Shown: positions 807 to 20,661 of the stretch, piece after piece
How positions within the stretch are numbered: position 1 is the stretch's first letter
Layout of the letters: the number at the start of each line of letters is the position of its first letter
Assembly (NCBI GenBank): GCA_030141585.1
Contig: JAQIFP010000091.1
Span: 1 to 21,648, forward strand
Origin: Ophryocystis elektroscirrha
Lineage: Eukaryota; Apicomplexa; Conoidasida; Neogregarinorida; Ophryocystidae
Direction: 5' to 3'
DNA length: 21,648 bases
The notes under the pieces: generated by a model
Seen by the model: the letters and a program-made list of their open reading frames with translations, nothing else
What the model was told of the DNA's origin: nothing
Databases searched by the model: none
Translations under genes and position numbers: made by a program

Positions 807-2556
807 ATGATTCGGACTAAACAAAACTTGCAATCTCAAATAAATGCAAAATCGCCTTATCGTTTCAAACATGGTATTATATAATTAAAAAAAAAAAAAA
901 AAAAAAAGAAAATCTATTCTAGCTTATGACTATATTTTTTTAGATAATTCAGATGTGAAATATTGCTCTAGTAGTAATGACAGCAAAAGAGCAAATGTAC
1001 CTCTCAATATGGCTTACGAACAGCCCATGTTGAAAAAAAAAATGGAGGACACTTTAAAGATAGAAAATAAACACCTCTATTTATACATGGTCCGTATTGA
1101 TTTTCTTCAAATCGTGAAACCATTACCAAAACAACCTTCTTTTAGTTTTCGACTACAGTGGGTACTAGGTTGGTTTTAAATAAATATATGAGCAATAAAC
1201 TAATTAAAAAAAAAAAAAAAAAAAAAGTAGATACTAAAATAATATATATTCTCTTAATTTTTTTATATTTTTATGACTAGATTATATATGTTATATGCAT
1301 TGATAAATATATAATGAACTCAAATTTAAATAATTGTTACTGTGTATAGTCATATAAGACTTTTTATACCCTTGTAATTAGTATTTGTTTTATTTTCATG
1401 CATAAAGTCAACCTTTTACTAAAGTCATAACTGTTATCAATATGAAGCAGGATCTAGTGTTCAATCAAGTAATAAAATTTATACCTTTAATGAAAATCTG
1501 AGTGACAAACTACAAATAAACTGGATGATACTGATAGAAGCAAGTAACTCAGAAAATGATAAACATTTATTGTACCTTCGAATAATTAAAGTAATCTAAT
1601 TTATTATAATGATGTTCACATATATACTTTACTCCACATTTTTTTTTAAAAGACATGATATAACTTATTTGTATTACTAATACATTAATTTATTGATGTA
1701 CTTCTAATATTTTGAAAAGCTTGCAACATAACTTTATTCTAAAATACATAAAGCTATATATATATATATATATATATATTATGTTGTTATTTTGATTTTC
1801 TCATATCAAGATATTATAGATAATCTTGATAATTGCATATAAACCAATATAATTTACTAACAATACTAAAAAAAAAAAAAAAAAGTTATATAAGGAAAAA
1901 AAAACCCACAATTTTTTCTTTTTATTTAACTCCATCTTATTCTAGCTAACATTATATTCAAATAGTCAATAAGTTTATAATCTTCTTGATAGGAAAACCC
2001 TGGCTCTTGCGACGTAGTTGCACATGGTTCCTGTGATCTTAGTAAATGGCAAGGCATCAACACAGTCCAAAAATGTGCACTAAAAATTTATTCTACTTCT
2101 GGTTTGTTTGCCAAAGCATTTGTAAGAATAAAAAAGATTTATTTGATCTTAGTTAACTCGAGCAATACAAGTTCGTTATTCCTTACAAAATGGAAAAATA
2201 TACCAAGTTATGAAACCTATTTCTTCTGACTCAAACACTTCCGTAGCTGAGTTTATAGACGATGAAAATGATTACCAAGCTGCTGTTCTAATTCAGGTAA
2301 AATAGTTACTTATAATTTTATTAATTCACTCTTAATAAACTAATGCCATTTAAAAATGATTCAAAACACATCTATTTCATATGTGTATGTTAATATATAT
2401 ATATAGTATAAAATCAAATTATATGCAAATATATGTATATATATATGTGCTTATAATATATATACATATATATGTACTTATAATATATATACATATATAT
2501 GTACTTATAATATATATACATATATATGTACTTATATATATATAAATTTATAATAC

Positions 2557-2610
<54 letters not shown>

Positions 2611-5600
2611 GTAAGAATATATATACATATATATAAATATATAAATATGTGTAAATATATATCTTTAACCATATTGTGTAATATTCATAAAATATATATA
2701 TATATATATATAAATATATATTGTGTAGTAATAATAAAATAATATATATATATATATATATATTATTTGATTATATTATGTAATTTATGTATATATTTAT
2801 ATTTATGGGTATTTATCACCGCTGAATGTGTATATATCATATTAGCAATTTGTATTATGAATAATTTTTTTTTTAGTTCTTAAGGAGTTTTGAAGAAAAC
2901 GATACAGACTATAAATTGAAGCACAAAGAAGACACGTATTCTAAAAATAATGACTCAGAAGACAAAAATATTTTACTAGAAAGAGGAAGCCTCGAAAAGT
3001 ACTTAGATCATAAAGAGCTTTATAAACCAATAAATAATACAATTGACGAAAATTTCATAAATTCCCATAAATTATGGAATTCTACAGAAACGATGTATCA
3101 AAAAAACACTAATGAGACCTCTGAGAATCATTTAGCTTCAAAAGAAAAAAAAAATGAACCGGTTCCCAAAAATAACGTTAGTAATGATGTTTTATCAAAC
3201 GATAAATTGATGTATCATAAAACGTTTCCTCCCAAAGCTTCTTCTCATACACTTCCTCCAAGTATTCACAAAACTAAATTTAATATAAATAAAAATATAG
3301 AGTCAAATAACTATAATGCAGATGAATTATATTCAAATAACACTGCTATCACAAATTCGAGTGAACTTCTTCAAAGCTATCAGTCGAGATTAAAAAACGC
3401 TGAAGCTAAAATATTAAAAAAACCGACAGTACCATATTTCTCTAGAGAGAGTTCTTTTGCTTTGACTGATACTGTATCAGTTTCTGATAATTGTATGCGT
3501 ACTTTCAAAACGGAATCTGACAAATTAGAGGATAACTCGGTTATGGAGACACCTTATTCTCCATATTTGTCAAAAAGTTCTTTAAATGAGAATAGTGAGA
3601 ACTTAAAGTTGAAGCCAAGCACTATAGGTGACGATATTGATATACCCGATGAAGGCGTCATAGATTACAATAAAGATATTTTTATTGTAAACAGAACCGG
3701 TTCCTTAAATTCATGGTCATTGAAAAACCCCGCTCTTGAAAGAAATTCAGAATATATAACAGAGACTAAAGAAGAGGAAACAATGTTAGAAATAATTGAT
3801 TCAGATGAGGATAATGATGAAGTTAATCAAACTACTGAAAGAGTTTATACTACAACATACGATTCGTCAAACTTTCCAGTAAAATTTTCATATAGCGGGT
3901 TCTCGAGTGATAAACGGAACTCACATGAAAATAATTATTCCGAAGATAACAAGTTTTTTTTTTCGAGCTCTTTAGATAGTGAAAAAATCGTCACCCCCAA
4001 AAGCAATAATAATTATTTAACAAAAAAAAAAAGTTTTAATGAATTTGAAAATGAAGGAAAATGTGAAGAAAATAAAAAAACTCTCTCAAAGACGCCAGAT
4101 AAAAAAAATACGAAAAAAAAAGAACTGAAAGATGATGCAGAAAGTTTTCATAAGAAAATAGAAGAAAATTTTAATAATATTGTAAAAAACCAAGACCAGT
4201 ATACACTAGAAGAAGAAAATAGCGAACAAAGTACTGAAAATATACTGCGAAGTTATGAAGAGCTCAAAGAAAAAATTTTGCTTAATAAACATAATAATAT
4301 ATTGGCAGAGGGAAAAAAAAAAAAAAGTATTGATTCTGAAGGAAAAAAAAAAAATACAAGAAACAAAGAAAGCAATGAACACTATGATTTTAAACACATG
4401 AAACAGCCAACAAATCATCAAAAACTTTATAATCAAAATGACTTTGAAAAACATTTTAAGAATTCGGAAACTGTGGACAAAGCAGTCGATTTCAATACTC
4501 AAATACAACGTGATAATCAATTTGCATACGGCTCTCAAAGCATTTATGGGAGCGAAAATGAATTTGAGTTTGAAAATGAAGGTTATTCTGAAAATGAATC
4601 TGAAGCTAATTACGACACTCAAGTTGAATATGAGTCTCATTCTAACAATGGAATCAACGAGGAAGCTAAATTAAATGATAAAATCCAGGGTAATTATGAA
4701 ACGCAAGCTGGTTATGGGACCCTACCCGACGATGCAACCCAGCCTGACGATGCAACCCAGTCCGACGATGCAACCCAGTCCGACGACGCAACCCAAGCTA
4801 ATTATGCTACTCAAAAAAATCTCGTTCTAAGCAACCTTGGAATCCAGGGCAATTATGGAACCCAAATCGATTTCGAGAGCCAAGTTGACTATGGAGCCCA
4901 GGACAATTACGAGACTCAGGACAACTATTGGACCCAGGGCAACTATGGAACTCAGGGCAACTATGGCACTCAGGGCAACTATGGCACTCAGGGCAACTAT
5001 GGCACCCAGGGCAACTATGGAACTCAAGGCAACCATGGGACCCAGAACAATTATGAAACTCAGGGTAATTGTGAATCTCAAAACAACTGTGAAACTCAAA
5101 ACAAATATGAATCCCAAATGAATTTCGAAACCCATGTTAACTATGAAACTCAAGTTGAATATGTAACCCAAACAAATAATGAAACCCAAGAAAATAATGA
5201 AACCCAAACAAATAATGAAACCCAAGAAAATAATGAAACCCAAGAAAATAATGAAACCCAAGAAAATAATGAAACCCAAGAAAATAATGAAACCCAAGAA
5301 AATAATGAAACTCAGGGAGACTATGTTACCCAGAGCGATTATGGGAGTCTAAATTACAATAAAAGCGAATTTAAGAATGAAATTCAACCTAATTATGAAA
5401 CTCAACCCAAGTATGGAAGCCAACTTGACTATGGAGACCAAAGTAACTATAGACACCATATGAAATACAGAGCCCAATCGGAATATTCTTCCAAAAATAA
5501 TGATGGAGTTCAACCCAAATATCGAACGCAAAAAAGCTTCCAGAACTTTGGAGAGTTTCAAGCGCAAGCTGAAAATGACGTTTGCGAAAAAATGAAAATG

Positions 5601-8600
5601 CAGCAGAATATTAGATCGCAAAAAAAAAACACTACTGGAGCAACCTATAACGCAGAAGAACATGTGTCAAAAAATAAATATGATACCTTGGAAAAATATA
5701 AAGACCAACTAGAAATCGGGATTCAGCCTAAATATGGGAGAACTAATCAAAATAAAAATGAAAATAAGAACCTGAGTATGTATTCAGGACCTTTTGAAGA
5801 CAGCTTGAAACATTTTCATAATGAATCTCTTGGAATATTGGATAATGATAATTTGAAGAAATCTCTATCATATAACTTCAGAACAAACAGTAAAAATAAG
5901 ATATTTCACGAAAACCTTGTAAAACAATATAGTGAAAAAAATAATAATTACGAAATAATGCAAGGTAAACAAGCTAATTATTATAGAAATAATCTAAACT
6001 CACCTAACGATTTTAAACAAGAGATTCACAAAGCCAAATCAGAGAATCAAGAAGACTTAAGATTTCGGACACAGAAAGAAACACAGATGTTTAATGAAAC
6101 GAATAATTGCCAGAATATTCGAATTGAAAAGTTTGATCAAAAATCAGAATATACTGTAAATGAAAGTAATTCTGCATTAGAGATATCTGATCCAATCGAT
6201 TCTGTTATGCAGCAAATAGATCCTAAAATTCCAAGCGTATTTGGTAAAAGTAAGAATCTAAAAAGACGCTTAGACTACGTACACAAAAGAATCAAATCTA
6301 CAGATGAAGCTGTTACACAACAAAGTAGAAGTGTAATTAACGAATTTAGTAGATTCGATCATTTAAAAAGAGAAAAAATTGATTCTAAGCGATATTCTGA
6401 GGATAGCTACAATGTTTCTCATAACAAATTTTTAAAGGAAAATGATGATAACCGTCAAATAGGAAATACTAACTTCAAGTTGCCTAGTAATTCTAACATA
6501 AAGTTATTTTCCAAAAATATCGAAGCAAATGATCCAATCTGTGGATTTAATGAATATGAAGTTGAATTTAAAGAAAATCTATGGGAATCTAGTTTACTGA
6601 ACAGTAAACTTCATATCAAAAAACCTACTTCCAAATATATTACAACTGACTCTTATTCAAAACAAGGTGTAAATAATGGTAGATTCAATTTTGACTCTGA
6701 CTTTTTGAAAAGAATTTCAAACTCAACATTAGATGCTTCACAATTAACAAATCAAATCAATAAATCAATAAACCTTATTAGCAAAGAGTATTACAGACAA
6801 TCAGAAAAACCATCTCATTCAATTTACAATACTGAATCATATGATAAAGACAAAGAAACGATCCAACTCAATACTATAAACCAACATAATCCTTTAAAAC
6901 CTGCATTATACAAAAATTTAAGTTCAACTTCCAATTTATCGAAGAACGAATTATTTAATTTAAATCAGCAAATTAAAGAAAATATCAACAGCGATGAAAG
7001 CGATCAATCAGCTAAAAATACTCCAGTTTTATGTAAATCCTTACAAAATTCAAAATCTCAAAGCCGGGAGTTACTTTCATACAAAAAATACACAGAAAAA
7101 TCGATTAATTATGAAAAAAATGAAAAAAATGTAAATATGCAAGCATCTCTTGATTCTTATGAGCAAATTTGTGATGAAAATGACTACGAAAATTTAAAAG
7201 CTCTTGAAAACAGTCATAAACAATTGCAAAATGCTTCCCAAAAAAATCAATTACTTACAAGCAATAAACTATATGATACTTCAGATTATAATGCATCAAA
7301 TTTTTTGGAAACCGGAAGCCTTAACACGGAGTCTAATTCGCACGTTAGTCGTAATAACGTACCCGATAAAAATTTTTATCAATACAGTACTTCAAAGAAT
7401 AATGAGACTGATCAACATCGTCATGAAGAAAAAATATTTGAATTATTACCAAAACGATCTTCATATAAAAATGTTTTTTCCAAAAAAAGTCTTTCAGAAC
7501 TTCCAAATCACTCTTTAAAAAGGACATCCTATCAAACTAATGAACACGGCATATTATCCAATTTAAAAAGTACTTTACTCAATGATATAAATTACAATGT
7601 AACTAAAGTTGAGAAGTGTGCTTCGGGCATTTTTGAGGACAAAAAACTTAAGAATCATTCGAGTGTACAAAAAGAAGTACCTTTGAGACGCTCAAATAGT
7701 TGTACTGCACCTACCATGTGTAAAAATCCTACTATCCACAAAAATAACAGAAGAATTAATAACAGCATTCCCCTAAAAAATTCATCTCCTAATAATGTAT
7801 TTTATTCCACTTCTTCAATAACTAAAGAGATTCTGAAAATATCAAACGACGGAGACAATGAATTTAAATATAATTTATCTGATCAGCCTTCAATTATGAA
7901 CTCTCAGTACACTGAAACACAGCAAACAAATACTCAATTCAGTCTACTAAATACAAAAAATACCTTAGACGGTATAAACGAAACTATTGAAAAAATTACC
8001 CACGTTGATACAGAAAATATGATAGACAAAGTACTCAACAAAATAGCTGGAGGCGCTGAGTCTCTGATTCCCCTTCTACATCGTTCTCTATTATTAAATA
8101 TGCACTTACTCTCTTTATTAGCCGAAAAACAAAACGACTTTCAAGATTGTCACTCTAAAATAGAAGCTACCCTTATTCAGATTTTTGGGACTTCCGAAAA
8201 TTTATTTTCTTCCACAAAAGAAAACTCTATTCAGTACAATTTAAATAAAAACTTAGCAGACACAAAAAACTCGCACTCAAATGCATCTTTTTTGCCAAAT
8301 AAGACCTTAAATTCAATGAATGTGACTAAATCTGAAACTGGCTACACTTCCGAAAAAGACACATTTAATTATCAGACTTCATCTCAATTACAAGCAACAT
8401 TTGGATCAGATTCTTTGAAAAACACTCAGTTAAGTGAAACGGCATATTTAAATGAGTCTCCTGTATACTCTGAACATAATTTGAGCAGTCAGCAGCCAAC
8501 GGAAAAACCAACCTGTATTGATGGTGAACAATTAGCAAAAAGTCCTCATTCATATACGCAAAATAAAAGAATTGATACTGAAGGACATACAATGCCTTCT

Positions 8601-10088
8601 TTACCCCTTTCAAATAATTCATATTCCATATATCCTGAGATATCTGAATATCCCAAAATAGTTTCATGCCCCAAAATCGACCATACACGCTATAGCGCAT
8701 CTCGAATTGATTCAAATTCTCAATTAGACTATAACAAAAACAAATACCAGTATACTAAACAAAATAATTTGCTCTCAAACCCCACTAAATCTACAGAGCT
8801 TCAAGTGAATTCTTCTCTATTTAGTAAACCATCTTTGAATTATGAATCCACTCCTTTTAAGCATTCTTTTTTTCAAAAGTAAAGTACACAAATAGTTTTA
8901 TACATAAAATCAGGCCTCTTGTCAGTAATGAACAATTACAGAAAAATGACGTCTTAATTAACCCAAATTTCCCACTTGACGTATCTAATATAAATTCTCA
9001 AACTGATGAACTTATCTCACAAGTATGCTGCATGAAAAATGAAGGAATACATCTTTACTATATTTAACCATATAATAAGTATTTTAAATATAATATAATT
9101 ATGATTTAATTAAGACTTATTTCTGTCTTATATAAAATCATATAATTATTAGAGTTTTATACTAATATACACATAAATTATATATATATATATATATACA
9201 TATATAATAGATAAATAAAAGCAAATTGAAATCGTTATTATGTGTAGGAAATACCAGAAAAATACCCTTACTATAAACCCGGTCAAAGACTATCCATATC
9301 AGATGATTGCTATTTAAATCAACCATGCATGTTTGATATTTTAACAGATCGAATTCCAGTATCTGGGCTTACAGGTAAAATTAATAATTTAGCCTCAAAA
9401 GGATCAAAACGTAAAAAAACAGTTGAACTCGAAATAGAAGATTCTTTACCTGTAAACCCGTTTATACCAAAAAAACATCTAAATAAAAAACTCAGCGTCT
9501 TCAAAACTACAAGTATTGCTTTACGTAAAAGATCCAGTGATCAAATACCAAAACTAAATGAGCCATTAAAAAATAGAGTAGTTATACCGCGATGTCCTCC
9601 TAGCCCTATGAGAGGCTTTACAAAAGATACTATACCTAGTTTTACTGTCCCACCTCCCCTTTCCACACAAGCGCGTCAAACTTCAAATAATGGTAACATT
9701 TATACGTTCAATTATATATTATAGACACATAAAAACAAAATTTACACATCAAAAATATAAATACTATTAAAAATTATTAGGTATTACATTATACAACTCG
9801 CCGTCATGCACACGGAACAATTATAAACTTTACAAAGAGAAAGGAGGAGATTATATATCTAAAATATATAATACGCGAAATAGTCAGCAATCGGTTCAGC
9901 AACAACAACAACAAATACAGCAACAAGATGTTTTACTTGGATCATCTTCCTTCATATTAGGGTCTTCGCCAAAATCCCGTCCTCCATTAATGGAGCCATC
10001 TTATCCCGTACCATTATTAAAACCACGAGGGATTTCGTGGCAAAACGAGGCAAATAACCCAACAAGGTTACTTATGCCTCGGTTATAG
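807..10088 (+). CDS. Giant low-complexity protein with probable NT-C2-like N-terminal domain (9 exons, about 2522 aa)
   Basis: Proposed exons: 807-873, 944-1168, 1451-1590, 1993-2121, 2153-2296, 2877-8878, 8914-9022, 9248-9692, 9781-10088. All junctions are GT..AG and phases agree throughout. The introns at 2122-2152 (31 nt) and 8879-8913 (35 nt) are very short; the latter removes an apparent stop at 8880. The ATG at 807 starts MIRTKQN. Residues of about 50-190, from exons 2-5, form a compact beta-rich module including [17 protein letters not shown] and FLTRAIQV. Its spacing recalls the EEIG1/EHBP1-type NT-C2 domain, a membrane-binding C2 variant; this is a fold-level impression. From about residue 236 it is Asn/Ser/Lys-rich, with hexapeptide repeats at about 836-1056. 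A basic [12 protein letters not shown] stretch follows near 6260, then an isolated hydrophobic helical island at 8020-8200 (residues of about 1950-2010). The tail is basic, with PPSP and a poly-Gln run near 9900. The stop TAG is 10086-10088. Cellular role unknown. The exon chain is well supported, the domain name less so. Confidence 0.78.
1754..1779. repeat. (TA)n microsatellite in intron 3 of the giant gene
   Basis: A short perfect dinucleotide tract lies inside the 402-nt intron 1591-1992. It has no coding role. Confidence 0.9.
2447..2605. repeat. 27-bp minisatellite (4 copies) and adjoining (TA)n tract in intron 5
   Basis: Copies start at 2447, 2474, 2501 and 2528, an exact 27-bp period. 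Each begins with GTACTTATAA (GTGCTTATAA in the first) followed by an AT/CA alternation. A pure (TA)n run follows at about 2563-2604. All of it lies inside the 580-nt intron 2297-2876 of the giant gene. More (TA)n tracts occur near 2690-2712 and 2740-2763. Confidence 0.9.
4690..5320 (+). repeat. 18-bp coding repeats: hexapeptide array ending in TQ
   Basis: Within exon 6 of the giant gene, the protein runs for about 200 residues in six-residue steps that mostly end in TQ or SQ. Three sub-families are nearly homogeneous: DDATQ-type units (about 4730-4795), GNYGTQ-type units (about 4930-5040) and ENNETQ-type units (about 5180-5310). Between them are diverged units with Tyr or Asn at position 3. 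Homogeneous blocks inside a diverged array suggest recent local expansions by slippage or unequal exchange. The dense TQ content resembles the SQ/TQ cluster domains that ATM/ATR-type kinases phosphorylate. Whether this array is a target is unknown. Confidence 0.93.
9178..9206. repeat. (TA)n microsatellite in intron 7 of the giant gene
   Basis: An AT dinucleotide run lies in the 225-nt intron 9023-9247, upstream of the acceptor TAG at 9245-9247. Confidence 0.85.
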
Positions 10089-10090
10089 CG

Positions 10091-13000
10091 TTAACGGAAC
10101 TGTGTCTCTTTTCTTATTATATGGTGGTGGTGTGGTGCCTGTTGATGTATTTTTGGCACATATTGTATAAATTGCTGATTATTTGGAATAGACACAACTT
10201 TAGTTCCCGGTATAGTTGTTACTGTTGTTACACTTTGTGTTGGTACCATGTTAGGTACCATATTTCTAAAAGCAATAGCAGGTTGCTTGACGACTGTGGG
10301 GTATGTCAGTGTTACTTGTGAATTAGGTGGGATATTCAAAGGCGAATAAATAACAGGTGGCGCTGCCCCTTGTATAGTAACAGTAGCATGCTGCGGGAAT
10401 TTAAATTCAACAGCGTTACTATTTGCAGACGTCATACCTGCTGGTTGGGAGTACTGTCGTATGATTTCTGTAGTCTTGTGCTCAGTTGTTTGTTGTTGAG
10501 GATTTAAAATAGTTTGCCCGCCTGTCAATATAGGGGGAAGAGTTCCAGATGACTCTTGCCGAGAAATTGTTGTTGTAGTTGTAGTTATATGCTGCCTTTC
10601 AGGATGGTTATGTATTAAAGATTCAGTAGGCTGGTGTTGTATCTGAGACGTCCCATTATAATTTAATAAATTCGGGTGTATCAAACTTATAGGACCAGAA
10701 GTAGTTGTCGTTGTAGTTTGGTTTATTTTTATTGGTTGCTGTTGAATAAATGGAGAATTTTGTTGGATTTGAGGAATTGTATGTTGTATATGTGTTGTTA
10801 TTGGTATGCTTTGCTGCTGATTCAATGGCATGCTTTGCTGTTGATTCAGTGGCATGCTTTGCTGCTGATTCAATGGCATGCTTTGCTGCTGATTCAATGG
10901 CATGCTTTGCTGCTGATTCAATGGCATGCTTTGCTGTTGATTCAGTGGCATGCTTTGCTGCTGATTCAATGGCATGTTTTGCTGCTGATTCAGTGGCATG
11001 CTTTGCTGCTGATTCAATGGCATGCTTTGCTGCTGATTCAATGGCATGCTTTGCTGCTGATTCAATGGCATGCTTTGCTGCTGGTTCAATGGCATGCTTT
11101 GCTGCTGGTTCAATGGCATGCTTTGCTGCTGATTCAATGGCATGCTTTGCTGCTGATTCAATGGCATACTTTGTTGCTGATTCATAGGCACATTTTGCTG
11201 TTGATTTAAAGGCGCATTTTGCTGCTGATTCAAAGAAATCAGAGGTGTAGTTTGTTGCTGAATATGCGTATGTATGTTTTGCGGAGTAGTTGTTTGCGTA
11301 GCAGATTGTTGCATATTTATTGGAATATCTTGTACATTTAGCGTAGGGATTGTGTGATGCTGCACATGCGTTTGGGTTGTGATAGGGATAGTTTCTTGAC
11401 GTATATGTGTCGTAACGGGAATAGTTTGAACATTTATTCCAGCAGGCTCTTTGGGTTGAGCATTATTATTGTTCGGTACTAATATTTGTTGCACAGGCGA
11501 GTTAGATGGTACATTAGATTGATACGTAGTATAATAGTAAGTTGTCGTTGAATCTTGTCTAGTTATTTGAGAATTATTTGGAAATTGTGTATTTATTAAA
11601 GTTGTTTGACTAGGAAGAAGAGACGTTGGATTTTGTAATTGAGGTGTTGTTTGTTCTGCAAGACCAAACGAATCCGTAATAGGAAAGTTCTTTTGTTTGA
11701 TAGTTGTTGTTTGAGTGATTCCCGGTGGTTGCAAAATAGACAGACTAGAAGGATTAGTAATAAAAGGTTTTTCACTAATGTTGGCGCTATTTTGCCTTGT
11801 GGAATAAGTTGTAGTAGTAGTAGTTGTTGTTTGCTGTATAGGAATTTTGACTTCACTCGTAGTATTTTCAGTAATCATTGATTTATTTTCATTAAGACTT
11901 TGTTTGTTTAAAGCGTTAGCTATTGTTTCATTGATTTGATCCGTCGTAACTCCTAATTTAATAGCATCTTTATAATTCAGTATCAGTTGGGGATTTTGCA
12001 GTACCACAAGCTGTGGATTCTGTATTATACTTTGTTCTCCTGATCTCTGTGTTCTTAGTTCATCTTTTTTTGTTTGTAAACCAGTATTTTGTTCATTTAG
12101 TAACATGGAATCCGATTTTCCAATTTCCGTTGAAGTTCCTTCCTTATAAAGACCTGACGATTGTTTCCATAAATCTCCATTATTTTTTTTATGTTTACTA
12201 TTGTCAGGACGCCGTTTACGAAGTTTAGGTGTAGATTTGTCCCTTAATGTATTTTGTGGGGTACCTCCTGTTGGGAATATTTCCGTTGAATTTTGTCTAG
12301 ATTTATATAATGGTGAAAAACTATTTTCTTTAGAATAAACTCCGCTTTTGGACTCATTAGTTTGTACTTCTAAAAGTTCTTCATCCGAAATATATACGGA
12401 ACTTTTACTACTAAATCTATTAAAATTATCATAGCAGAATTCGGAAACTTTGACTTTATCCAAGTGTTTCAACTAAAACAAAAGAATAAATTCACACACA
12501 ATCTACGCATTATTTGAAAATAAAAAGAAAATTATGAAAAAAATGTAAATAATAATTTCTGATAAAGCGGGAGTATAATTCTTTAAAAAATAACATAAAT
12601 TATTAATTAAATGTATATATTACACTAAATCTTTTAAAAAATTTATTTTTTTTAAATATAAAAGTGAGTTGCAAACTGATAAACATTATATAATAATTAC
12701 ATAATTATATTTTCACTTAGAAAAAAGCATACCTCATTATAAAAACCGGGATTAAAATGTTGTTGTTTGTGAGAAACTGCTTGTCCTATAATGTCGGGGT
12801 CTGTTGTGTAATAAGCATAATAATATATTCTTACAATTATTTGGTTTATTTTCTTTATTTATAGCAGCAAGATTATTTTTTAGGTCAAACACGAGCTGCT
12901 GACTTAGCTGAGGCTGTACGTGGAATTTATTGATATTTTCCTCTACATTTTCTTCATTACTTCTTGAAGTAGAGCACACGCTTTCTATAAGTTGGCGTAC

Positions 13001-13762
13001 AGATAAAATAATAACTCCAAGGTCATCAATTAACTGTACATGAAAGTCTCTCTGAGTAAAATTCTCCATATCGTCGATATGGAACAACGTTGAGCCCACT
13101 TTATGATTATTCTTGTAGTCGTCCATTATGGAGAACACCACATTTACGTTAAAATCTGCTTTTGGTACTTTTAACACACATATGCCATCTGTAGGCTTTA
13201 TTAGTCCAAATTTATTTTTGGTAAAATTATTGGATCTGTCTGATATGCCTACTATAGATATAGTGGCTAATATTGAATCCCATGAATGTTTTAATCTCGA
13301 GTCAATCACTTTAAACTCCAAGTATGTATGTCTTTCAGTAAATATATTATATATATTGCTTGCTTCAATTTCTTCAAAGTCTATAGATACTGAAAACTTG
13401 CTTGGATCTGTTTTGGACTTGAAGTCGCTTGATACTTTGCCCATAGTAAGCATTTTAGAAATCAAATATAAATCCACAACTACACATCCTATGTATATAT
13501 CCTCTCCTGTGGATTCATTTGCAAATACTTTAAATTCAATGAATTTATCCATCATATGCGGTTCAACGTCAATTATGTAACATCCAAATATCCAAGACGG
13601 GTTAGATTTCGGTCGCGAAACTTCTGTTGTATATGTTACATTTCGCCAATTAAATGAAACATAATACCCTCTCACGTTATTTGATGGTATCGGCAAATTT
13701 GAAGCCTTCTTAATTGCTACTGATAACCTCATTATTTCTGCAAAAATCAATATTAGTAACAT
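10091..13762 (-). CDS. C2-domain protein with Gln/Thr-rich repeat tail (3 exons, up to 1125 aa)
   Basis: Proposed exons on the minus strand: 13762-12835, 12800-12733, 12472-10091. The first intron (12834-12801) is 34 nt; the second is 12732-12473. Removing the first avoids a stop and gives KPNNY-PDIIGQ. Exon 2 ends Asn-Glu and joins Leu-Lys-His-Leu. Phases agree, so the C2 part and the Gln-rich part are one gene. The ATG at 13762 gives MLLILIFAEI before MRLSVAIKKASNLP. That second Met (13732) is a typical C2 beginning and may be the true start, because TTTTTGCAG, a splice-acceptor-like string, lies just before it. C2 domain 1 is about residues 11-110. A second C2-like half (about 140-265) contains VNVVFSIMDDY and VGSTLFHIDD. 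C2 domains usually bind phospholipid, often with calcium; clustered Asp loops are not obvious here, so calcium binding is doubtful. The rest is disordered, Gln/Thr-rich, with poly-Thr runs and an octapeptide array. Its stop is two bases from that of the convergent gene. Confidence 0.82.
10807..11238 (-). repeat. 24-bp coding minisatellite, about 18 copies (octapeptide NQQQSMPL)
   Basis: Head-to-tail 24-bp units each encode the octapeptide NQQQSMPL on the minus strand. Central units are nearly identical at the DNA level, with a few silent or single-residue variants (NQQQNMPL once; a GGT-for-GAT change in two neighbours on the plus strand). Edge units are more diverged (NAPL, NVPM, SIPI). The unit length is a multiple of three and its other frames lack stops, which creates long false reading frames on the plus strand. 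Confidence 0.95.
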
Positions 13763-13817
13763 TATTTTCTTATCTATATATATTTTTATATATATACAAA
13801 TTTATCTATATATATAC

Positions 13818-13866
<49 letters not shown>

Positions 13867-15341
13867 TGTTTATATGTAAATACATATATATATAAACTCA
13901 TGTATATATATGTATATGTGTATATATATGTAAACATACGTATATATGTATGTATAAGTATATATGTATACATTAGTATATATATGTATGTTTATATAAA
14001 GATTTGTGTCTATGTATGTATAAATAAATATCAAAATGTGTGTATTTATGTTTACAAATAAATTATATAATTCATTATATAACTTTTATATTTCATAAAT
14101 AATTAAACTATGCACCCTTGGTACAATAATTTATAAAAGATAAAAATTTTTTAAAAACTCACAATTTCGTACATAAATAATATAAATAAATACAAGATAT
14201 ATAATCAATTAACAAAATAATATACTATATTGTTTATATAGTATAAATTATCTAAAATTATTAGTTTTATGCACTGAAATTATCAAAAATATATAATTTA
14301 TCGAATGAGAAACTATTATTATAATTTGCACTTAAGGATTTTCTTCGTATATATAAACATACGTTTTTTTTTTAAGAATATGGAATATTATCTTAAATCA
14401 TAACATGTATAATAACATGTATTTTTATTTATTAAAAAACATTTATTATATAAAATAATAAAATATATATTTACACAAGTGGGGTCATAATATTAATATA
14501 GTATAAATATGGTATTTAAATGTTTTATTATAATAAAGTGAAACATATTTTAATATGGGCCAGGTATATATTATATGTATATTGACATTTATAGTAAATA
14601 TAAATATATATTGAACAAATACATATATAAATATTTATAACATACTATAATTGCGGAAAAATTACTTTGTAACTAGAAAGAATGAATCTTTGTTCTTTTC
14701 ATGCTTGCTTCTGAAAAAGGAACAATAGTAACGGTATATATTATATTTACATACTTAAGATACCTTTATTAAATAAATAGTGACAATATACTATCTTGGT
14801 ATAATATATATATTACACTTATTTGAAAAATTATTGATGAAATAACTTAAATCTACACCACGTATCGGAAATATAAATTATTATGCAATATCAACATAAA
14901 AATTAATTATAAATTTATTTACTATGTTACATAAAAATTACTACCTTACCTCTTTACTAAGTTGTAACGTCATATTATATGCATATATTTATGCGGGGTA
15001 ATCTGACCAAAATTTTAACAAATTTATATTAAGCTAAATTAAGTTTATTTAATTATTATATAAATAAATTTGAAACAACGTGTTCAAAGTATATGGAATC
15101 TTATTAATTATGTACTTGAAGTGAACCGCATAATATGCGTATGACAAATATATAATTTTGCAATTTCTTGTCGAGTTTAGATGAGTCGATTAACCATTAT
15201 TAAAACTATTTGTAAATTTTTTATCTAGGAATTATAATAATTATTGTGTATACAGTGTAATAAATAAAGTATTTAATGATTTAAAAAGCATAAATTTATT
15301 GTTTGTTTTTGTTGGGATAAATACTCAGCTCGCTACAAATT
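13763..15341. other. AT-rich divergent intergenic region
   Basis: This 1.58-kb stretch separates the minus-strand C2 gene and the plus-strand LOTUS gene, so it should hold both promoters. It contains a (TA)n tract at about 13832-13862 and degenerate TATA/TGTA-rich DNA to about 14040. The remainder is AT-rich with stops in all frames. I see no coding exon, tRNA or recognisable structured RNA. The frame open from about 13714 to 14061 is Ile/Tyr low-complexity translation of the TA tract. Confidence 0.8.
13795..14040. repeat. (TA)n and degenerate TATATG/TATACA repeat
   Basis: A pure TA run at about 13832-13862 is flanked by degenerate alternating purine-pyrimidine DNA with scattered TG and CA steps. 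It lies just upstream of the minus-strand C2 gene. Confidence 0.85.
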
Positions 15342-17104
15342 ATGGAAAGACCGGCGGCTCCTGAAGATAGACAATATACATATACAAAAATACAAACAAA
15401 GAATAATCATCAAGTAACCATAAATTTACCAGAGTTGTATAAACTACTAACCCCATATACAGTCATAAAAACTGTGGAAAACTTGTATAAAGATAGAACA
15501 AGACCTTCATTGACTGATATATTACAGCGCCTGAAAACAATAATAAAGCCCCCTAATAGCGAGAAACAAACACTTAATGTTTGTTCCTTATATCGATATA
15601 TTAATATCAAATGTTCTGACAAATTACAGCTAGAACTTCCTAGTAATATTTCTACAGATTTGTTTAAATCATTCCTAATTAATGTCAATGATGAAAAGTT
15701 AACTACGAAGTATTGTATACCAGGTTTAAATTCCTACATAGGACAAACCATAGTCAAACTTATAAATTCATCCCATAAATATAAAGCTTGGGTGGATCCC
15801 CACGATCCCAGTAATCCATATGATTCAGAAATATGGGAGCAGTTTTCTGCGTTCCTCACGGAACGTCTCTATGCATCCAAATACATATCCAACGATCTTT
15901 CTTGTCTTCAACCATATCAGTTTAGAGGTGGCAGGTACAATCTTGCAATGGAGTTGCAGCAATCCGAATACCCTCAGCTTAACAAACTCACTTTAGGAGA
16001 ACTTTGTCACATTGTTCAACTTGCAATAAATAACTGTGTCCTTGCCTATGAACTCAGGTTTGCTAAAAGCAAAGAATGTAGACTTATTCATGTTTCTCTA
16101 CTTAGATGTATATATAGACACTTCAATCAAGTGACAGTATGCATATATATATTACATTATATATTTCAGTGTACTCCAACCCGTCGCTGCGTGCAAAGAA
16201 TACACAAAAGCCTTACTAACAGAAAATGAATCTCAACAACAGAACACTTATCAAACATATAAGACTATTGAACAATTTGCTGAAGATCTATATATACTCC
16301 TTTTAAACAAACCAGAGGGTTTAATCACTGCTCAATTGCGAAAAACTATGCAACAATGGTAAATCAACATTTCTTAAATTAAATATAAAATCATTGTAAA
16401 GATAATAATAAATATTATTAGTATTATAATTATTATTATAATTATAATTATTACTATAATTATAATTATTATAAAATATAAAATATAGAAAATTTTAATA
16501 TCATATTTATTTTAATGACAATTATGATATTTTGAATAATATTGTAAACAAAAATATGAATTAATTGTAATTTGGTAATTTAAAATAATTACTTTATATA
16601 AAAACATTGTGTATATAAAATTTATAATAATGATAATAAATTAATTAAATTATGTTTATATAATTCAATATACTATAATTATTTTTATGAATACATCGTA
16701 TGAATATATTTAAAATAAATATTTTTTATTAATTACTTCTTAATTAAGCAATTGGTTAGAATGCATTAATATACCATTATAGGTTCAACAAAGACGTTGT
16801 TCCTCAAGTGTTTGGTTATAAAAAGTTGACAACCTTACTTACTGAAAACGTTATTTTATCATCACTATGCCATATCAACTATTTATACCCATTATATAAC
16901 GTATTACAGTTAAATAAAACAAAGTATCCTGTTACATCTCCGACTTCACAGTCAACAAATGCAACAGAAAATCATCCTTCAAGAACACAAAATGTCTCGG
17001 CATCAGGTTGTAAATTAAAGCAATTACATGAAGTCGATTTTGTTTTCCCATATTCCTATTCCAACCACAATATTTCTTATGCCGCTTGGGCATCAATGAG
17101 ATAA
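15342..17104 (+). CDS. LOTUS (OST-HTH) domain protein with upstream OHA-like domain, MD1-like (about 410-425 aa)
   Basis: The ATG at 15342 starts MERPAAPEDR. The first long exon has a region (residues of about 160-245) with EIWEQFSAF, FRGGRYNLAMEL and LGELCHIVQLAI, which I read as the OST-HTH-associated (OHA) domain. Downstream, another frame from 16170 encodes VLQPVAACKEYTK and then a clear LOTUS winged-helix: EDLYILLLNKPEGLI, then QQW joined across intron 16359-16782 (424 nt) to FNKDVVPQVFGYKKLTTLL. LOTUS domains bind RNA or Vasa-type helicases. LOTUS plus OHA is the layout of Plasmodium MD1, a male-development factor; orthology is inferred. The stop TAA is 17102-17104. The junction between 16058 and 16170 is unresolved. 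The obvious 33-nt intron 16137-16169 keeps the wrong frame. Phase-consistent options are introns 16078-16105 plus 16131-16169 (423 aa), or one intron 16058-16169 (408 aa); both use weak donors. The topoisomerase gene starts 135 bp downstream. Confidence 0.85.
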
Positions 17105-17239
17105 TTATTTTAAGTCATTTTAAGCAGTTTAAGTACTTTTAATGCTTTTCAGTTTCACTAATTTAACTTTGCTATATTTTTTTTTATTTATACGCGACTT
17201 TTAGATTTACTTTTTGTTTTTAATAAAATCTATCAAATT

Positions 17240-18571
17240 ATGCACACATCTGGAGCTTTTTTTATGAATTGTAAAAATAAATACATATTTTTATGTTTTT
17301 AGTTCCCTCACTTAGTGGATTTAGCCATGAAGATGCTCTATTTGCTACAACAAAGGTAAATTATTTGAAAAATCACGCGTATAAAGGAGTTGGTGGAAAA
17401 TTCAATAGATGCATGTCTTAGTTCGTTAGATACAGAAAAATGTCCTTCTACACTACAAATAAACCGAAGAATAGCAGCAACTTTACCAGTGACAAAACAT
17501 CAAATCAATATTCTCATACAACCAGAAATAACTGACTCAAAAGTATATAATGAATCAAATACAGTTATTTTCATTACAAATCTATATATATAAAAAAAAA
17601 AGTTCACTATACTACGAGATTTGTCTCTAAACTAATTTTTATTTTTTTTTTTTTTTTAGAAAAGTAAAGTTATGGTAATAAGAGTATCGGATACAGGTCA
17701 TGGAATTGCGCAGGGATGTATACCGTACTTAGGACAATTTTTCGCTACTACGTATAATAATAATTTTACTTATACAAATATAGAAAAAACAATCAAGAAA
17801 AACTCTCTGAAGTTACAAAAAAAGAAAAGAAGAGGAAAAAAAAACCCCCATCTAATTTCACTTTTGCTTTTGGACGTTTCGGTAAGAATTAAACTTAAAC
17901 TATTAATTGCAAAGGTTTGGGGTTAAAAATGATTTTATTAGTATGTTTAATCCATTTGAATTACTTTATAGCATATAGCAAGATGTCAGCAAGGTTCTTT
18001 AAACTTCAATATATGGAGTAAGTTATACTATGTTCATATATAGATGAACAAAAAAAAAAAAAAAAAAAACTTTTAAGAAAGTTTTATTGTTGTATCTCTG
18101 ATTTTTTTTTTACTGCTAAATTTGTAATTAGTGTGAATATATTTGCTATTATACAAAAGTACTTATATATATATAAATATATGTTATAACAAAATTAGAG
18201 CCTGCTAAATCCACAATAATGTTTTGTTTATTTTACAATCGAGATACTTATCAAATCGAAGCATCCAAGTAATTTCTCTTAGACGCATTAAATTGATCAG
18301 TATTTCTCATCAACCATATAGTGAATATAAACCTTTATGGTCTACAGTTGTAACTGCAACGGTACTAAATACTTAGCACAGCAATTTTCGTCTAAGGTTG
18401 TTTGCTCTGAAGAATTTGATAGTAGAATTTATGGTTATATAGAAGGTCTTTCTCTTCTTAATCACAATGTAATAATTTTAACATAAACACTGTTGCGTTC
18501 TTATTATTGTATAATATATCAACTTTGTAAAATAAGAGTACATTAACAGCAACAATAAAAATAAATTATAT

Positions 18572-18623
<52 letters not shown>

Positions 18624-19468
18624 TAATTTATATTAACATTATAAATATATAATATTTATAGTATAATAAGTATAATAAGTAATGCATATATATACATATA
18701 TTTTTATGCTTTTATAATACAGATTAATTTTACCTTTGAATATATACACGATATTCAAAAAACCATTGTATTATCCGGCATATGGAATGAATCCCATAAC
18801 AATCGAAATTCCTTAGAGAAAATATTGAAATCTTCAAACGATCACACAATTATTGGATCTGCAAACGTTCAAAATACTTTAGAGCAACAAAAGGTGTCCA
18901 TATATGCGTTACTGTCTAAAACCAAAAATGTTTCGGAAGAAGACACAGCACGCGTTTGGGTAAATATAGTATTAAACAATATTTTGTAGTTATGGAGAGC
19001 AGTAAATAATGTGATTTTGACTTCTTCCGATGCTTCTATATGCTTTCTAACTCGAATACTTCAGTACAAAACTATAATTCATCATTTAAACATAGTCTTT
19101 TTTTTAAGCGCCACGGAAGCTGTTACGGAATAAATCACGTATCCAAAGAATATTCTAACGAGCAAGCTCCATTTTTAACAGACGTCCTTAAAGATAGTAA
19201 TGCATCAATATTTAGAGTAAGATAGACTTATCTGTGTTTAAATTTATATTTTTAGTACTAAAAATAAAATGTATATAAAACATTTTATGTAAAATTTATT
19301 ACCTGCACTTATTTTAATGTAAAATTAAGGATAATTTATTTTTTTATTTGCAAATACTTATTCCATATAAAAACTCTTCATAAAAAAACACACTTCATAA
19401 AAAATTTATTATAATAAATAGTAATTATGTAAGTTTTTCTGGAATCCAATTACTTAAAATTGACGTAT

Positions 19469-19517
<49 letters not shown>

Positions 19518-20661
19518 TGTATATATATGAATATATATATATGTATATATATATATTCATATATCAATAATGTAGATATATAAATAATGTGTACATATAG
19601 GTAATGTGTATATATAAATAATGTGTATATATTAATAATGTATATATATGAATATTGTATAAATAGTATTAATAAAAAATTGACAAATGAATGTATGAAA
19701 TTAATTAATTATTATAATAAGAATATAATTTAGAATTATTCATATAAAGATATTAAGATGAAACTTTTTACATTAGCTTGAGTATATAATTTGGTCATTA
19801 TGATGCTATCTCTCAGATGGCTGCACAAACTTCAGTTGTTCGAAGTAAATACGCTACATGGACAGATTTATTTTTAGTAACATATATTCATTTTTATACA
19901 GAGTATGTAGTACATACATTTGCAATCCACTGAAGTACAATTTGGATCTATTGAGAAGTCTTATGTGCGCGTAAGTAAACTTTGTATGTAATTATATTTT
20001 ATAAGTTAGTGTAAATAATAACTTACTGAAAGATGCACTGCCATTCTTCAAGTAAATGAAATTGTTTTAAATGGCTACATTATACAGAGTAGCCAAATAA
20101 TAACAAATTCTTTACATTAATTATATAAACTTGTACGCAAACTTAAATATATATTTGACTATGCTTAATACAGTTAAGATGTGGCTTTTACTTTTTTTTT
20201 TTAGTTCATACACTTACACTAAATTTTTCTCTATTTTACTAGGGAGGAAAAGCTGAGCAAAATTTTATTATGCAAACTATTCAAATGGGATTTGATCTTC
20301 TTCAAAATAAGGTTAATTCGCCCTCAGAATTCGAAGCATCGGCAAAAAGCTCAGTAATGATATATGACTACTAAGTTACGTACAGAATAGAAAAATAATA
20401 TCTATATATTTACCTAATACCATCCAAACTCTAACCAATATAATCAAAAAATCCAAAAATGAAGTTTTTATAAAAGAAATGATGCGGGCTGTTTGTGGAG
20501 ACAATCATAATGAAGATTTTATCAACATATTATCAAGTATTATAGAAAATTCTATTATTAAAGAATATACTCAAAAAACCTATTCTAAATTTAATCCAAA
20601 AATTACCAAAGTTCAAATTCCCGAAGAATTAAAAATTAATTCTAAAAGAACCAAAAAATAA
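17240..20661 (+). CDS. TOP6B: DNA topoisomerase VI subunit B (17 exons, 532 aa)
   Basis: This is the ATPase subunit of the type IIB topoisomerase, which works with TopoVIA/Spo11-like DNA-cleaving subunits. Exons: 17240-17270, 17303-17355, 17387-17542, 17660-17751, 17784-17881, 17915-17940, 17972-18017, 18244-18268, 18301-18361, 18397-18468, 18723-18959, 18990-19063, 19096-19216, 19817-19876, 19911-19970, 20243-20353, 20386-20661. The sum is 1599 nt with every phase matching. The GHKL ATPase motifs are in order: ATTKELVENSIDAC (residues 25-38, Bergerat N-box), VSDTGHGI (89-96) and GRFGLGLKMILL (141-152, G-rich lid). A helical middle region at about 235-325 corresponds to the H2TH domain. The transducer follows, with HLQSTEVQF (387-395) where the family has an STK-P motif, then IEKSYV and a C-terminal tail with IYLPNTIQTLTNI. 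The first Met is chosen at 17240; Met9 (17264) is possible. Oddities: Glu392 in place of the transducer Lys, and a transducer apparently about 20 residues shorter than in plants. MutL, gyrase B and Hsp90 are less likely from the lid motif. Confidence 0.92.
18577..18619. repeat. (TA)n microsatellite in intron 10 of TOP6B
   Basis: About 20 TA dinucleotides lie in the 254-nt intron 18469-18722. Confidence 0.9.
19465..19660. repeat. (TA)n tract and AATGTGTATATATA-type degenerate repeat in intron 13 of TOP6B
   Basis: A TA run ends near 19512. A degenerate array follows in which AATAATGT or TAATGTGTATATAT recurs several times to about 19660. It lies inside the 600-nt intron 19217-19816, the longest in this gene. 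I found no hidden exon there with usable splice sites. Confidence 0.75.

Follow-up and report, generated by a model that had tools for sequence, protein, structure and literature searches.

The window analysed here, a stretch of 21,648 nucleotides (nt) that forms positions 1-21,648 of contig C109 in an assembly of 8,008,172 bases and 118 contigs, carries fourteen predicted introns of 30-35 nt. Our data show that these belong to a narrow class of micro-introns that is real, exceeds chance and accounts for the majority of the predicted introns in the genome sampled, and that a class of longer introns is probably real, too. We consider it highly likely that the window is intron-dense apicomplexan nuclear DNA in which most introns have about 32 nt, and that these are ordinary U2-type spliceosomal introns (as predicted) recognised as one unit.

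Intron lengths in the sampled genome

Introns were predicted with a generalised hidden Markov gene finder. It gave equal prior weight to all intron lengths between 12 and 700 nt (flat length prior) and was trained on C1:1-100,000, C2:1-100,000 and the window; decoys had other dinucleotide pairs in place of GT..AG. Together with 50 kb of C20, these stretches make up the sample of 271.6 kb from the 8.0-Mb assembly. Using the flat prior without a splice matrix, GT..AG yielded 98 introns at 28-36 nt versus 12, 5, 12, 13, 7 and 7 for six decoy pairs. At other lengths GT..AG was not clearly higher (47 versus 23-54 at 37-69 nt; 135 versus 144-161 at 70 nt or more), in part since long gaps bridged by GT..AG are open to decoys as well. 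With matrices learned for each pair, 159 of 354 GT..AG introns fell at 28-37 nt, compared to 6-25 of 193-271 for eight decoy pairs. The untrained 50 kb of C20 behaved in the same manner under the flat prior: 23 of 71 introns were found at 28-37 nt with matrices and 6 of 44 without them, where four decoy pairs gave 0-1.

With a learned length prior, the finder predicted 743 introns in 116 gene models over the 271.6 kb, C20 included: 5 below 28 nt, 524 at 28-37 nt, 50 at 38-49 nt, 41 at 50-69 nt and 123 of at least 70 nt. This count includes five wrong-strand introns in the window (10327-13194), where plus-strand models won the overlap over a minus-strand C2-domain gene, and some gene models are truncated where a sampled stretch ends. 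Four decoy pairs trained alike placed 55 of 421, 24 of 333, 61 of 480 and 10 of 331 introns at 28-37 nt, versus 516 of 735 for GT..AG in the same run. The first-pass annotation would have counted a sharp genome-wide peak as support, and predicted lengths in the sample peak at 31 nt (104 introns) and 32 nt (95 introns), with 475 of the 743 at 35 nt or shorter. It had also described a class confined to 30-35 nt with almost nothing between 36 and 69 nt. Here the narrow majority class stands, but its borders do not: predicted lengths spread from 28 to about 42 nt, where the class fades out, and 145 of the 743 introns lie at 36-69 nt (89 of them at 36-42 nt). The gap, which fits the introns listed by the first-pass annotation, is therefore soft, and we reject a class limited to 30-35 nt and followed by an empty interval.

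A model-free search across the whole assembly for GTAAGT-N(10-40)-TTTYAG pointed to the same lengths, as 48 of the first 100 matches listed (177 in total; contigs C1 to C45) were 29-37 nt long versus 29 expected for even spacing (p 5e-5). Intron density in the sample was about 7.0 per intron-bearing model (743/106), a figure inflated by merged models. In one model (L028:1429-2794), the finder fused a G-patch protein, which we take to be PINX1-like, with a presumably proteasome-beta-like protein; these are probably two merged genes. We also considered selection against in-frame introns and rejected it, as the micro-introns (n=524) show no depletion of lengths divisible by three (3n 170, 3n+1 191, 3n+2 163), though stop-free 3n introns are the easiest to miss; a 33-nt PRPP synthetase intron, for example, was left unspliced by the flat-prior model, where it appeared as 11 inserted residues.

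Micro-introns in the window and in conserved genes

All fourteen micro-introns of the window start with GT and end with AG, with the lengths reported by the first-pass annotation. Its description of donors and acceptors holds as well: donors are GTAA (10), GTAT (2) and GTAC (2), so that 12 of 14 are GTAA or GTAT, and acceptors are TAG (7), CAG (4) and AAG (3), so that 11 of 14 are TAG or CAG. With the learned length prior, all fourteen were recovered exactly (13 of 13 on the plus strand and the one on the minus strand; training included the window). Three of them lie outside the TOP6B-like gene:

2122..2152, plus strand: micro-intron of 31 nt in the large NYGTQ-repeat gene; GT..AG; recovered with flat and learned prior
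8879..8913, plus strand: micro-intron of 35 nt in the large NYGTQ-repeat gene; GT..AG; learned prior
12801..12834, minus strand: micro-intron of 34 nt in the C2-domain gene; GT..AG; learned prior on the minus strand

For the intron at 8879, the flat prior picks an in-frame alternative acceptor at 8925 (47 nt). The match to the C2 domain (E 1.2e-8) is located upstream of the 12801..12834 junction, which it does not cross. The remaining eleven micro-introns are found in the TOP6B-like gene together with five long introns:

17240..20661, plus strand: TOP6B-like gene (DNA topoisomerase VI subunit B), 17 exons, 547 amino acids when spliced; open frame, family matches
17271..17302, plus strand: micro-intron 1, 32 nt; GT..AG, open frame, learned prior; within the NF003218 match
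17356..17386, plus strand: micro-intron 2, 31 nt; flat and learned prior; within the NF003218 and HATPase matches; next exon starts ELVENSIDAC
17543..17659, plus strand: long intron, 117 nt; open frame; flat and learned prior
17752..17783, plus strand: micro-intron 3, 32 nt; GT..AG, open frame, learned prior; within the NF003218 and HATPase matches
17882..17914, plus strand: micro-intron 4, 33 nt; learned prior; within the HATPase match; FGRF joined to GLGLKM
17941..17971, plus strand: micro-intron 5, 31 nt; GT..AG, open frame, learned prior; within the HATPase match
18018..18198, plus strand: long intron, 181 nt; open frame, learned prior
18269..18300, plus strand: micro-intron 6, 32 nt; GT..AG, open frame, learned prior
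18362..18396, plus strand: micro-intron 7, 35 nt; GT..AG, open frame, learned prior
18469..18722, plus strand: long intron, 254 nt; open frame, learned prior
18960..18989, plus strand: micro-intron 8, 30 nt; GT..AG, open frame, flat and learned prior
19064..19095, plus strand: micro-intron 9, 32 nt; GT..AG, open frame, learned prior
19217..19816, plus strand: long intron, 600 nt; open frame alone; the finder instead called a 39-nt intron at this place and closed the gene model
19877..19910, plus strand: micro-intron 10, 34 nt; GT..AG, open frame, learned prior
19971..20242, plus strand: long intron, 272 nt; open frame, learned prior
20354..20385, plus strand: micro-intron 11, 32 nt; GT..AG, open frame, learned prior

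After removal of these sixteen introns, one open frame runs from the ATG at 17240 to the stop at 20661, which the learned-prior finder split into two models (17240-19261 and 19817-20661). NCBIfam NF003218 matches residues 6-116 (E 1e-9) across three micro-introns and one long intron, and Pfam HATPase_c_3 matches residues 27-155 (E 5.3e-4) across four micro-introns and the same long intron. The motifs ELVENSIDAC, DTGHGI and FGLGLKM, which we take to be the ATPase boxes, follow the splicing closely, as the first starts at a micro-intron junction and the last spans one. The earlier claim that micro-introns are needed to restore conserved topoisomerase motifs is thus upheld by the opened frame and by weak topoisomerase VI-B matches that cross junctions. 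Since the NF003218 score (37.5 bits) is far under the curated cut-off of 274, the protein is a divergent relative; as a query against a protein sequence database (7,600 candidates), it gave no match at E <= 1e-3, in keeping with a very divergent protein.

Stronger protein evidence comes from five genes of the sample aligned to solved structures, which were picked as conserved-looking and not at random:

N-myristoyltransferase (NMT): 13 introns, all 29-35 nt; 411.7 bits over residues 32-423; the clearest case
Aspartyl-tRNA synthetase (AspRS): 13 introns; 320.5 bits, rising to 431.9 with the learned-prior model
PRPP synthetase: 10 introns; 262.1 bits, rising to 294.5 with the learned-prior model
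MCM7: 5 introns; 468.6 bits
SMU1: 14 introns, 13 of them 30-36 nt; 332.5 bits; model incomplete at its end

These genes contain 55 introns, of which 52 lie inside the best alignment: 45 at 28-37 nt, four at 39-42 nt and three longer ones (60, 72 and 160 nt). Read by eye, the alignments pass most junctions without an adjoining gap. Gaps adjoin NMT residue 285 (33 nt), AspRS residue 139 (60 nt) and PRPP synthetase residues 204, 270 and 354 (37, 160 and 33 nt), so these five borders are less sure, and the 60-nt and 160-nt introns may be mis-sized. Spermidine synthase (introns of 33, 178 and 32 nt) was excluded from the count as it has a Pfam match alone and no residue-by-residue alignment. In a Pfam scan of ten flat-prior proteins, nine matched families at E 1e-3 or better, and for the tenth (RPA2-like by eye) no Pfam family matched. 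SMU1 (L029), a protein needed for short introns in human cells, carries 13 micro-introns itself.

Besides the TOP6B-like gene, the window contains:

807-10088, plus strand: gene for a giant low-complexity NYGTQ-repeat protein with long 18-nt repeat arrays (NYGTQ / NNETQ) at 4554-5415
10802-11233, minus strand: about eighteen 24-nt repeats, 93% alike (QQQSMPLN), in the C2-domain protein (C2 E 1.2e-8)
15342-17104, plus strand: LOTUS/OST-HTH-type protein with an OHA domain (OHA E 3.2e-19; OST-HTH match under its cut-off), directly upstream of TOP6B

Two parts of the LOTUS gene share one frame only after removal of a 112-nt intron, and a second intron of 424 nt lies further on. A 33-nt GT..AG stretch in this gene (16137-16169) was rejected as a micro-intron, since the finder prefers the 112-nt intron at 16058-16169, which lengthens the OHA match. 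The two end pieces of the giant repeat protein that were scanned gave no Pfam match, and an Rfam search of the window found nothing. Both contig ends (1-185 and 21517-21648) are made up of simple repeats (ATATATACAT and TATAA), which are probably where the contig broke.

Splice signals and recognition of the micro-introns

The donor of the micro-introns (n=524) reads GT-A(0.87)-A(0.66)-A/T/G-T(0.44), and a T-rich stretch from about -7 to -4 precedes a T/C-AG acceptor. GT and AG were required by the method. Long introns (n=123) have the same kind of consensus in a slightly stronger form, with GTAAG donors in 28 of 123 versus 62 of 524 (p 0.003) and YAG acceptors in 118 of 123 versus 466 of 524 (p 0.017); as splice matrices helped to choose both sets, these differences are indicative only. 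The earlier proposal of a second, longer class is nevertheless supported by predictions made with no splice matrix, in which introns of at least 70 nt use GTA[AT] donors at 0.49-0.62 per length bin versus 0.23 of all GT. Intron interiors have a GC content of 19%, coding sequence of 32%. Concerning the branch site, micro-introns show an excess of A at -12 (z 4.3 versus a null 95% maximum of 3.0), and long introns do not. At position -6, with A at 0.33 and T at 0.50, there is no positional excess of A.

On the side of the machinery, the U1 locus carries ACTTACCTG, and the GTAAGT-like donor consensus is complementary to the U1 5' end. U6 carries ACAGAGA, a U4 match is present though cut by the edge of L004, and PRP8, SF1, SMU1 and RED are recognisable in the genome. 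A scan for U2 small nuclear RNA found none, but control genomes gave none either, which makes it uninformative. The sole G-patch match is a reading frame that is presumably PINX1-like. Judged by sequence, the parts examined (U1, U6, PRP8, SF1, SMU1 and RED) appear ordinary and lend no support to the specially tuned spliceosome that the first-pass annotation had envisaged.

Based on these data, we propose that U1 would pair with the GTAAGT-like donor, that the 3' end would be read as a short T-rich stretch plus YAG, and that the branch adenosine, which has no fixed sequence context, probably sits about 12 nt before the acceptor. A branch near -12 in an intron of about 32 nt would leave a donor-branch spacing of about 20 nt. 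Given the weakness of the signals at donor and acceptor, much of the definition probably falls to the AT-rich span itself, which is short and fixed: all three sites, the donor, the branch and the acceptor, would be recognised together as one unit (intron definition) with length as a main signal, and we infer with good reason that the intron is defined by its length. The lower size limit probably stems from spliceosome geometry, and the narrow peak from deletion pressure pushing introns to this limit. In the human B complex, a donor-branch distance of about 52 nt would fit without altering the structure, and Smu1 and RED become essential when this distance is short (PMC6692369). SMU1 and RED, both conserved in this genome, are the best candidates for making micro-introns workable alongside a largely standard spliceosome. 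A more far-reaching version, which we regard as possible rather than probable, is that about seven in ten introns have been compressed to about 32 nt and are handled by a canonical-looking spliceosome with no fixed branch-site sequence, SMU1 and RED being needed for most introns. If true, the spliceosome must assemble and activate on introns that are shorter overall than the human B-complex donor-branch spacing.

Among the alternatives, two separate recognition modes survive best, yet we judge them improbable: micro-introns would use intron definition and dedicated factors, and long introns a conventional route, as in the two-class system of Porospora. The weaker donor and acceptor signals of the micro-introns, the A at -12 in this class alone and the presence of SMU1 and RED would fit such a division. 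Against it, both classes share one kind of consensus at donor and acceptor, the differences are modest between sets that were both partly chosen by matrices and both contain false calls, and the length tail at 37-42 nt is graded.

Several observations weigh against our reading of short introns recognised as one unit. A k-mer and positional search found no branch-site motif, with TAAC, TAAT and YTNAY-type sequences not enriched and, if anything, depleted; the A at -12 reaches only z 2.1 in the flat-prior set (n 158; null maximum 2.9), with twelve base-by-set tests run in all; and RBM17/SPF45, which replaces U2AF on some human short introns (PMC8363638), was not identified in a limited search that would miss an intron-split domain. 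The total of GTAAGT-N(10-40)-TTTYAG matches is not enriched (177 versus 201 for a backward control), and all TOP6B family matches remain under the curated cut-offs (20.5 bits versus 25 for HATPase_c_3). With flat length prior and splice matrices, just 3 of 13 plus-strand window introns (2122, 17356 and 18960) were exact, and longer introns were called across several of the TOP6B micro-introns; support for any individual junction of the window thus depends in part on how intron lengths are distributed genome-wide. Further points could indicate an artefact of frame-joining, in which short gaps are selected to bridge stops and frameshifts as GT and AG are common in an AT-rich genome. Decoy dinucleotides also bridge frames, with 181-233 introns per pair without a splice matrix, and five decoy pairs made to use the real length prior, with no retraining, gave 152-270 introns at 28-37 nt versus 512, a yield stemming partly from decoys that bridge real introns. 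Likewise, the minus-strand run called five introns (30, 30, 301, 34 and 32 nt) across plus-strand exons, and the C2 gene model continued into false introns past the probable end of the gene. Where the coding signal is weak, an individual call can therefore be erroneous. For the class as a whole, however, the decoys lack a comparable length peak (5-13 versus 98 at 28-36 nt without matrices; 10-61 versus 516 when trained alike) and solved-structure alignments cross most junctions free of gaps, which refutes an artefact at this level and leaves this explanation very little probability. Least probable of all are programmed DNA elimination elements resembling the internal eliminated sequences of ciliates, which would likewise be short, AT-rich and interrupt coding sequence, but ciliate elements are bounded by TA, whereas all fourteen window stretches are GT..AG, short and long introns share asymmetric GTA(A/T)..T-rich YAG ends, spliceosomal genes are present and EF2 points to Apicomplexa.

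Lineage and known short-intron systems

By its EF2, the source organism is most likely an apicomplexan. The EF2 protein of this assembly shares 87% identity with its nearest relative and 81% with Babesia microti EF2, and in a tree of 46 EF2 proteins this genome falls into a seven-member clade (support 100/100) nearest to the apicomplexan rows, with a poorly resolved backbone and a Cryptosporidium grouping of only 86/33. Two of the six partners in this clade come from contigs of 83 kb and 15 kb, respectively, so the lineage may be accessible to study. The nearest EF2 relative, used as a query against viral contigs and genome contigs, found no match.

Tiny introns are known in a few other organisms. 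The closest parallel is Porospora gigantea, likewise an apicomplexan with a narrow majority class: its short introns of about 25-30 bp (mode 28) make up 71-72% of introns (PMC9250747), compared to 524 of 743 (71%) at 28-37 nt with modes at 31 and 32 nt in the present sample. Its small introns have their own consensus, in which an A located 6 bp before the acceptor is strongly conserved (PMC9250747); this A is absent here. Moreover, intron-bearing genes of Porospora have 1.8 introns each and its GC content is 54% (PMC9250747), unlike the roughly 7.0 per intron-bearing model, inflated by merging, and the 27-30% GC of this genome. In Gregarina niphandrodes, the mode of 37 bp is close to the upper edge of our class, but the median of 95 bp indicates no dominant narrow class by that table (Table 1, PMC9250747). 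For Cryptosporidium parvum, a table in the same paper gives a mode of 44 (PMC9250747).

Ultrashort introns are also preponderant in the apicomplexan Babesia microti, at 18-21 nt and some of them in frame (PMC5082761, PMC8446681); the introns found here are about a dozen nt longer, and none of the 743 predicted introns has 18-21 nt. Theileria parva, again an apicomplexan, likewise has short and long classes, with modes of 55 and 80 bp (PMC2612703). Outside the group, the ciliate Paramecium bursaria (median intron 24 nt; PMC12862383) resembles this genome in an intron GC far under exon GC, a narrow length window, GT-AG ends and the presence of SMU1, and differs in its shorter introns and in the reported RBM17, which our limited search did not identify. 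Among the open-licence papers listed by searches on short introns in Apicomplexa, no title or abstract opening names a class of 30-35 nt in this phylum.

This genome is thus a further case of a known, still puzzling phenomenon, namely how spliceosomes handle introns of 20-35 nt, given the need for roughly 50 nt between donor and branch in human extracts. It adds a case with a peak between those of Babesia and Porospora and that of Theileria, in an intron-rich lineage. As a practical consequence, any gene caller whose minimum intron length is set above about 35 nt would overlook the majority of introns in this genome. Furthermore, it makes testable whether dependence on SMU1 and RED, degeneracy of the branch site and short introns go together.

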